From assembly GCA_027293165.1 (NCBI GenBank), contig JAPUGB010000124.1, forward strand, positions 1-43,335: a stretch of 43,335 nucleotides of DNA, in the 5' to 3' direction. The DNA comes from Gammaproteobacteria bacterium. Its GTDB lineage: Bacteria > Pseudomonadota > Gammaproteobacteria > Steroidobacterales > GCA-2729495. Every line of letters starts with the position of its first letter. The first letter of the stretch is position 1. Below, in pieces: positions 21,386 through 23,857 of this stretch. The position numbers and the translations under genes are program-made. Under the pieces are notes generated by a model that did no database searches, had not been told where the DNA came from, and was given only the letters and a program-made list of their open reading frames with translations.

Positions 21386-21623
21386 TGTGGTTGACACGGT
21401 CCAAGCCCCTGTCCGGACTTATACACAATGCGTCGGTCCGCTTACTGGGTTACGGGGTACTGCGGCAAGACCGCTTTACAGAGTCACAGCAAGCCATTGA
21501 TTTATATAGATAACCTCGCTCCGATCAATTTTTGCGCAAGTTGAAGGAGTTATTGCAGTCTTGCGGTTCCAGCGTCCTTTGCCCCAAAAAATCCACAGAG
21601 TTATCCACAGTATTTGTGGACAA
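21386..21623. promoter_or_regulatory. Cluster of DnaA-box-like sites (oriC-like or priA control region)
   Basis: Five nonamers related to the DnaA box TTATCCACA are present. They are TGTGGTTGA at 21386-21394 (minus, 7/9), TTATACACA at 21419-21427 (plus, 8/9, identical to E. coli oriC box R2), AAATCCACA at 21589-21597 (plus, 7/9), TTATCCACA at 21601-21609 (plus, perfect) and TGTGGACAA at 21615-21623 (minus, 8/9). An AT-rich stretch (about 21498-21537) lies between them. The sites are seen directly; an origin, a DnaA-titration site or DnaA control of priA are inferences. Neither dnaA, dnaN nor mnmG is nearby, which argues against the main oriC. Confidence 0.5.
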
Positions 21624-21664: not shown

Positions 21665-23857
21665 GTGAACAGGGATTCCATAATTAAGGTCGCGCTGAGC
21701 ACGCCGGTTTCACACCTTTTCGATTACCTACCCGCCGGTGACATAGTTCCGCGCCCCGGACAGCGCGTGCGCGTCCCGTTCGGCAACTCGCAACGCACCG
21801 GGGTCGTTGCCGCAGTCACGCAATCCACGACACTTCCACGAACCCGGCTGCGTCGGGCGCTTGAGATTCTCGATGACCAGCCGTTACTGGACGCCGAGCT
21901 TATGGGCTTGTTGGAGTGGAGCGCCAACTACTACCTACACCCGCCCGGTGAGGTCATTGCTGCCGCGCTGCCAGCGGTGTTGAGACGTGGTGGGCAAGCC
22001 GTGCTGAAAAAGGACATTCGCTGGCGGGTCACCGCCGGAGGCCGTGATGCAGACCTGGAAAGGCTGGCCTCAAGCGCACCAATCCAAGCGAAAGTTTTGC
22101 GCGCCGTTGCCACAGCTCCGGCGGGATTGACATCGAGCGAAATGCGCCGCCATACAACTGGCTGGCAGCGGATCGCCACGGCACTGGAACGCAAGGGCTG
22201 GTTGATCCAGGAGGAGGGTCTGCCGGAGGAATCCCGCGAGGCGGCGCTCGAGGCGGGGCCGCGATTGAATGCAGCACAGGCCGCGGCCCTGGACGAAGTG
22301 CAGGATCAGGGTTTCCGAGCTTACCTGCTTGAGGGCGTTACTGGCAGTGGCAAAACCGAAGTGTACCTGGGCCTGATTCAGCGACAGATAAGCGCGGGTC
22401 GCCAAGTTCTGGTGCTGGTACCGGAGATCGGGCTTACGCCGCAACTGGTGGACCGCTTCCGTCGCCGGGTTGATGCACCTGTCGTTGTCATGCACTCCGG
22501 ACTCAGTGACGGGCAGCGTCTGAAAGCGTGGCTGGATTCACGCCATGGCCATGCCAAGGTCGTGGTCGGAACCCGTTCCGCAATATTCGCTCCGTTCACC
22601 CAACTCGGGATGATCATCGTCGATGAAGAGCATGATCTCTCTTATAAACAGCAGGAGGGGTTCCGTTACTCGGCCCGTGATCTCGCTGTGGTCCGCGCAC
22701 GGCGCGCGGAAATCCCCGTGGTACTTGGATCGGCGACACCGTCTTTTGAAAGCGTCGCAAACACTCTCGCAAAACGCTACACGCGCCTCGAACTGCCGCG
22801 CCGGGCTGGTATGGCACGCCCACCAACCATCCGGCTAATCGACCTGCGTGTTCAACCGGCGCACGATGGCCTGACCGAGCCGTTGATCACAGCGATGCAA
22901 CATCACCTGGACAGAGACGGCCAGGTGCTTTTGTTTCTCAATCGAAGGGGGTATGCCCCCACAATGATGTGTCCGGGTTGCGGCCGGGTCATCGAGTGTG
23001 ACCGCTGCGACGCCCGCATGGTGCTGCACCGCCGGCCTTCGATTCTCGCCTGCCACCACTGCGGCACCGAACGCGCCGCTCCAGACCTTTGCCCCGACTG
23101 CGACCATCTGCTGCATCCGGTTGGACAGGGAACCGAACGGATAGAAGCCGCAGTGGAGCGACTGTTTCCAGAACAATCGCTGATACGCATCGATCGCGAT
23201 ACGACGCGACGACGGGGAGAAATCGAGCGGCGGCTCCAGAGCATCAGGTCAGGCGAATCGCGCATACTGCTCGGCACACAGATGCTGACCAAAGGTCATG
23301 ACTTTCCCGGCGTCACGCTGGTCGGGATCATCGATGCCGACCACGGATTATTCGGCACCGACTTCAGAAGCAGCGAACGGCTCGCGCAGACGATTATTCA
23401 AGTCGCTGGACGAGCCGGCCGCGGGGAACGGCCCGGCGAAGTGTATTTGCAAACGCTATACCCCGATCATCCGTTGCTCAATACTCTTCTGCGGCACGGC
23501 TACGGCCGGTTCGCGTTAGAAGCGCTCAGGGAACGAGAAACTACTGCTTGGCCACCGTACAGCCATCTCGCATTGCTGCGTGCAGAGTGTGCTCATCGTG
23601 GTCCGCTGTTCGAATTTCTCGCCCAGGCCCGAGGCTGCGCGGAGCGCCACGCAAACAACAGCATTCAAATGCTTGGCCCGGCAAGTTCCCCGATGGAACG
23701 GCGTTCCGGCCGATACCGGGCACAGCTGTTGCTACAGAGTATGCATCGCAGGGAATTGCAGGTTTTTCTGAAGAATTGGCGCGCCGATCTGTCGAACCTG
23801 CCATCCCGCCGCAAGACACGCTGGTCTCTGGATATCGATCCAGTCGAGCTGTTCTGA
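21665..23857 (+). CDS. priA: Primosomal protein N' (replication restart helicase PriA)
   Basis: A 730-residue superfamily-2 helicase from the GTG at 21665; the frame opens with a TTG at 21614, but homology begins at KVALSTPVSHLFDYLP. The N-terminal 3'-DNA-end-binding domain is followed by Walker A GVTGSGKTEVYL (about 224-235) and the DEEH box in IIVDEEHDLSYKQQEG. The zinc-binding cysteine pairs are CPGCGRVIECDRCD and CHHCGTERAAPDLCPDCDH, and the helicase motif V/VI region is GTQMLTKGHDFPGV to QVAGRAGRGERPG. It loads the replicative helicase at stalled forks. It is followed by argS after 51 bases. DnaA-box-like sites lie immediately upstream. Confidence 0.97.
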   Translation: MNRDSIIKVALSTPVSHLFDYLPAGDIVPRPGQRVRVPFGNSQRTGVVAAVTQSTTLPRTRLRRALEILDDQPLLDAELMGLLEWSANYYLHPPGEVIAAALPAVLRRGGQAVLKKDIRWRVTAGGRDADLERLASSAPIQAKVLRAVATAPAGLTSSEMRRHTTGWQRIATALERKGWLIQEEGLPEESREAALEAGPRLNAAQAAALDEVQDQGFRAYLLEGVTGSGKTEVYLGLIQRQISAGRQVLVLVPEIGLTPQLVDRFRRRVDAPVVVMHSGLSDGQRLKAWLDSRHGHAKVVVGTRSAIFAPFTQLGMIIVDEEHDLSYKQQEGFRYSARDLAVVRARRAEIPVVLGSATPSFESVANTLAKRYTRLELPRRAGMARPPTIRLIDLRVQPAHDGLTEPLITAMQHHLDRDGQVLLFLNRRGYAPTMMCPGCGRVIECDRCDARMVLHRRPSILACHHCGTERAAPDLCPDCDHLLHPVGQGTERIEAAVERLFPEQSLIRIDRDTTRRRGEIERRLQSIRSGESRILLGTQMLTKGHDFPGVTLVGIIDADHGLFGTDFRSSERLAQTIIQVAGRAGRGERPGEVYLQTLYPDHPLLNTLLRHGYGRFALEALRERETTAWPPYSHLALLRAECAHRGPLFEFLAQARGCAERHANNSIQMLGPASSPMERRSGRYRAQLLLQSMHRRELQVFLKNWRADLSNLPSRRKTRWSLDIDPVELF

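Follow-up and report, generated by a model that had tools for sequence, protein, structure and literature searches.

The DnaA-reactivating sequences (DARS) are characterised in E. coli, with descriptions for its near relatives, and the published conservation of DARS2 covers E. coli-proximal species (PMC5742627, PMC8682772). DARS1 and DARS2 have their box spacing in common, with box I opposing boxes II and III (PMC5742627). According to the E. coli model ADP-DnaA sits head-to-head on boxes I and II, DNA bending by IHF together with Fis activates the complex, and ADP leaves (PMC8682772). Fis sites belong to the regulation of DARS2 (PMC4245941), and the position of DARS on the chromosome matters in E. 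coli (PMC5010248). The locus datA promotes ATP hydrolysis and not ADP release (PMC5742627). In the open-licence literature searched we found no prior report of DnaA boxes or a DARS together with priA or rpmE.

Here we describe a cluster of DnaA boxes in the spacer before priA in a gammaproteobacterial genome. The window, meaning the whole stretch of DNA that was analysed, has a length of 43,335 nucleotides. We consider it probable that the cluster is a DARS and that this genome has two of them, the twin being located at rpmE.

The DnaA-box cluster and the E. coli DARS cores

The first-pass annotation had proposed a DnaA-box cluster at this place, and four boxes are indeed present in the spacer before priA, at 21419-21427, 21589-21597, 21601-21609 and 21615-21623. 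The features are as follows, with offsets counted from the core start at 21592.

21419-21427, + strand: distal DnaA box TTATACACA (consensus TTWTNCACA), 173 bp upstream of the core start
21490-21502, + strand: putative IHF site CAAGCCATTGATT, one mismatch to TAANNNNTTGATW, offset -102
21523-21537, unstranded: putative Fis site GATCAATTTTTGCGC, full match to GNNYANNNNNTRNNC, offset -69
21589-21597, + strand: DARS-type box III AAATCCACA, 7/9, oriented like box II, with its start 12 bp upstream of the start of box II (likewise in E. coli DARS1 and DARS2)
21592-21620: core pattern TCCACANNNTTATCCACANNNNNTGTGGA
21601-21609, + strand: DARS-type box II TTATCCACA, 9/9, a perfect DnaA box, central in the conserved core
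21615-21623, - strand: DARS-type box I TGTGGACAA, which is TTGTCCACA on the minus strand, 8/9, head-to-head with box II
21665-23857, + strand: priA, replication-restart helicase PriA (NCBIfam), with a GTG start 42 bp past the core

The distal box is, as we take it, identical to box R2 of E. coli oriC. An A/T-rich stretch, TTATATAGATAA, directly follows the putative IHF site. Two of the three boxes nearest to priA are co-oriented (III and II) and one is opposite (I), and box I starts 14 bp after box II on the opposite strand, again the arrangement of E. coli DARS1 and DARS2. The identity of priA, already given by the first-pass annotation, agrees with the NCBIfam priA models (E down to 5e-282), and the divergent gene on the upstream side of the spacer encodes an ECF sigma factor. 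The 30 bp before the core (21562-21591) are conserved in the priA copies of relatives, with a GCGG and a CCC-type motif, and less so in the rpmE copies; they are possibly the priA promoter. Further downstream in the window, an open reading frame at 26293-27519 matches a lasso-peptide epimerase family weakly and below the cutoff.

In order to compare the core with E. coli, where the comparison covered the known loci, we used one common pattern. The DARS1 core, read on the minus strand as TACACATGGTTATCCACAGGAATAGTGGATAA, fits it without mismatch and the DARS2 core, TTCACAACTCTATCCACAGAAAAGGTGAATAA, with two; in both the order, orientation and spacing of the boxes are those of the window core. 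PMC4585315 quotes primers for the deletion of DARS2, and these enclose the cluster taken here as DARS2 core. Under the common pattern datA shows 5 mismatches, the dnaA region of the own genome 6 and E. coli oriC 9. Thus three boxes with the shared spacing and an opposed box I are present at 21589-21623 and absent from datA and oriC. E. coli has a second cluster with the DARS core geometry next to mutH (L182:1952-1983, three mismatches), at a distance of about 300 bp from that of DARS2. The genes rpmE and priA are neighbours in E. coli, too, and point away from each other. The spacer between them contains no DnaA cluster, and the idea that it shares the element was rejected on this ground.

Conservation of the element and its twin at rpmE

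In the own genome the core pattern occurs exactly twice, once before priA and once before rpmE; the two sites were assigned by comparing coordinates with those of PriA and of ribosomal protein L31 (rpmE). From 60 relatives searched 57 carry the pattern, mostly as a priA/rpmE pair, while a reversed-pattern control gave no match in all 60 and in the own genome. Nearly all relatives keep the identical box spacing at priA and at rpmE, and the nonamers, whose conservation in relatives had been suggested as a check, are indeed conserved. Three genomes have cores that overlap on opposite strands and together make up a palindromic array of four boxes (G141:C16:2907-2947, G008:C59:5443-5483 and G021:C105:11655-11695).

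The flanking sites keep their positions as well. A distal box is located at -169 to -174 in 22 of 28 priA elements and at -179 to -194 (about -182) in most rpmE elements. Using the IHF consensus from PMC8682772 and PMC4245941 (at most one mismatch, -125 to -85) we found a site in 12/28 priA and 18/28 rpmE elements compared to 2-3% in shuffles, nearly always at -101 to -103. The Fis consensus from PMC4245941 is matched near -69 in 26/28 priA and 20/28 rpmE elements (3-5% in shuffles). All three proteins appear to be available: the genome encodes DnaA, a Fis with 54% identity and two Bac_DNA_binding proteins, which by sequence and neighbours we take to be IhfA (encoded after pheT) and IhfB (encoded after rpsA).

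To look across the class, we compiled 124 gammaproteobacterial genomes, one per family, and searched them for the core with at most one mismatch. It was present in 75 and the reversed control in none; the pattern was absent at this threshold from 49 families. Exactly two copies are carried by 39 of the 75 core-bearing genomes and one copy by 30. The core lies upstream of a PriA match in 36 of the 75, always in the orientation of priA and at a distance of 10-192 bp (302-480 bp in three cases), and upstream of rpmE in 12. Exact cores are found, among the matches listed, in Pseudomonas, Legionella, Acinetobacter, Nitrosomonas, Lysobacterales and Woeseiaceae. The composite recurs too: in 27 elements the distal box is present at -160 to -200 in 23 (0.1 in shuffles), and at the offsets of the window family an IHF site in 15 (0.6 in shuffles) and a Fis site in 12 (0.55 in shuffles). 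Spacing inside the element is fixed to about 1 bp and the distance to the gene varies. As read from open frames without a family search, other neighbours of the composite include ttcA in Acinetobacter and, in several Betaproteobacteria, xseA. Since it is found before other genes in other lineages, the composite behaves as an independent unit.

Judged by their open reading frames, several Betaproteobacteria (L185, L191, L205, L210, L224, L229 and L243) have a divergent xseA-like gene next to the core, and in some an ExbB/TolQ-like gene lies on the opposite flank. One genome has six cores on two contigs (G099, C12 and C13), none of them at priA or rpmE, and in another the rpmE and priA cores are merely 6.5 kb apart on one strand (G102:C1:1738937-1747721).

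Location relative to dnaA and oriC

In the complete relative G011 the GC skew turns from negative to positive with increasing coordinate at about 255 kb, where dnaA is located (253 kb), and in G004 and G005 the skew also changes near dnaA, although less cleanly. In none of these three does the sign change fall at priA or rpmE. Because the skew switches there in complete relatives, we place oriC at dnaA, and the doubt expressed by the first-pass annotation that the cluster is the main origin was justified. The spacer between dnaA and dnaN (L001:735-972) is very A/T-rich, contains a perfect DnaA box and is likely part of the true oriC. In a Proteobacteria MAG an exact core is located about 1 kb from a DnaA-like gene (L263), which could be an origin sharing the core geometry.

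Within 400 kb sampled from each of G011, G004 and G005 perfect DnaA boxes occur solely near rpmE, dnaA and priA. For genomes with all three loci on one contig, the distances of the two sites from dnaA are 69 and 69 kb in G011, 82 and 85 kb in G017, 71 and 81 kb in G036, 91 and 102 kb in G004, 65 and 97 kb in G009, and 51 and 58 kb in G041, where the gene position was used for priA. In G005 and G059 the priA and rpmE sites are asymmetric about dnaA. Symmetric flanking of dnaA at about 50-100 kb is common, not a rule, and is meant as a description only.

Competing explanations and relation to known systems

That nonamers were grouped here by chance is an explanation to which we give practically no weight. 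The counts of single boxes in the window would allow it, as they are mildly enriched and non-significant (4 TTWTNCACA matches against 1.8 expected; 9 of 100 shuffles reach 4), but the three-box arrangement is found once in the window and 0.00 times in shuffles, even at three mismatches. In the 1.2 Mb sampled from the three complete relatives 5 of 8 box pairs within 40 bp show the geometry of boxes I and II, and the priA and rpmE sites are the only pattern matches at up to two mismatches. With the geometry kept in the relatives and across the class and zero reversed-pattern matches, the cluster is far beyond chance and this explanation was rejected; the first-pass annotation was probably right to see a functional DnaA-binding cluster here. 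A chromosomal or second origin, as might be suspected where DnaA boxes occur together with an IHF site and A/T-rich DNA, is very improbable too: the skew changes sign at dnaA and not at priA or rpmE (clearly in G011, less so in G004 and G005), an A/T-rich stretch and a perfect box are also present between dnaA and dnaN, and most relatives carry the element in two copies. An origin at priA was rejected from the skew of the three complete relatives, the skew check having located the switch away from the cluster.

The cluster might be only a promoter of priA and, separately, of rpmE, controlled by DnaA, IHF and Fis and without DnaA recharging, which would tie replication-restart and ribosome genes to the replication cycle. 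The short distance to PriA matches in 36 families, always co-oriented, and the conserved 30 bp before the core in priA copies speak for it. We nevertheless regard it as rather unlikely, as the core geometry equals that of E. coli DARS1 and DARS2, which precede other genes, the composite is also found ahead of rpmE and, in other lineages, close to xseA and ahead of ttcA, and the internal spacing is fixed while the gene distance is variable. Less likely still is a datA-like or titration site removing or inactivating DnaA after initiation. Like datA the sites are near oriC in several relatives and have an IHF site between DnaA boxes, but datA lacks the core geometry found in DARS1 and DARS2, Fis sites are part of DARS2 regulation (PMC4245941), and titration by single boxes would not require a fixed spacing. 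Identity with datA was rejected because of the mismatch in core geometry. The DARS reading itself has points against it, namely the order of IHF and Fis sites, swapped relative to DARS2, the location near oriC, which is unlike that of DARS1 and DARS2, the 49 families without the pattern, and the invariant orientation towards priA, which could reflect promoter control. The first-pass annotation had listed control of priA, titration and an unusual origin as options; a DARS, the best fit, was missing from them, while DnaA control of priA is a possible second function alongside DARS, since the core ends only 42 bp before the GTG start. As the adjacent gene, priA is possibly co-regulated.

Modelled on E. 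coli, a DARS at this place would bind ADP-DnaA head-to-head at boxes I and II with box III alongside, IHF would bend the A/T-rich DNA located some 100 bp ahead of the core, and Fis would bind between the IHF site and the core. The strained complex would release ADP, the empty DnaA would take up ATP, and the restored ATP-DnaA would serve initiation at oriC near dnaA. Both the nucleotide exchange and the binding of DnaA, IHF and Fis at the predicted sites are suggested by analogy to the E. coli system.

With a simple sequence rule candidate DARS can be located in 75 or more of the 124 gammaproteobacterial families sampled, suggesting that the architecture is much more widespread than described in the open-licence literature searched. 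In these families priA is a frequent and possibly ancestral site of the candidates and the two-copy state is common. With this knowledge, the evolution and chromosomal placement of DnaA recharging become directly testable in many non-model species. More speculatively, and with clear reservations, the ancestral gammaproteobacterial DARS may have been a rigid composite of DnaA box, IHF site, Fis site and core at priA, with a twin at rpmE able to flank oriC at similar distances, of which E. coli DARS1 and DARS2 would be relocated and rearranged descendants. If this is true, initiation in the twin-flanking lineages would be followed within minutes by duplication of both copies, and the pair would serve as a dose timer close to the origin; in addition, the copy at priA would link expression of the restart helicase to the state of DnaA.

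Compared to the known systems, the element shares with datA the combination of DnaA boxes and an IHF site and differs from it in the core geometry, based on the core pattern alone (five mismatches). The DARS1 core, in the bioD-uvrB spacer, fits the family pattern, but is located at another gene and another chromosome position, and no clear IHF or Fis sites were seen at the family offsets. DARS2, in the rppH-mutH spacer, has a three-box core of identical spacing and orientation (two mismatches), and upstream of its box III it carries IHF and Fis sites and, at -188, a distal DnaA box (PMC4245941, PMC8682772). As far as can be read from the DNA, the window element has IHF and Fis sites beside its core as well, and DnaA, IHF and Fis are encoded. 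In DARS2, however, Fis is located at -128 and IHF at -90/-74, compared to IHF at -102 and Fis at -69 in the window, so that the order is swapped, and its distal box is on the other strand. DARS2 lies beside mutH in the middle of the chromosome arm, whereas sites of the window type adjoin priA and rpmE, near oriC. We therefore filed the element as DARS and not as DARS2, because its core, IHF and Fis sites are not ordered and spaced as in E. coli; by its architecture it would be a DARS with a predicted recharging function, and a variant one in module order and chromosomal place.
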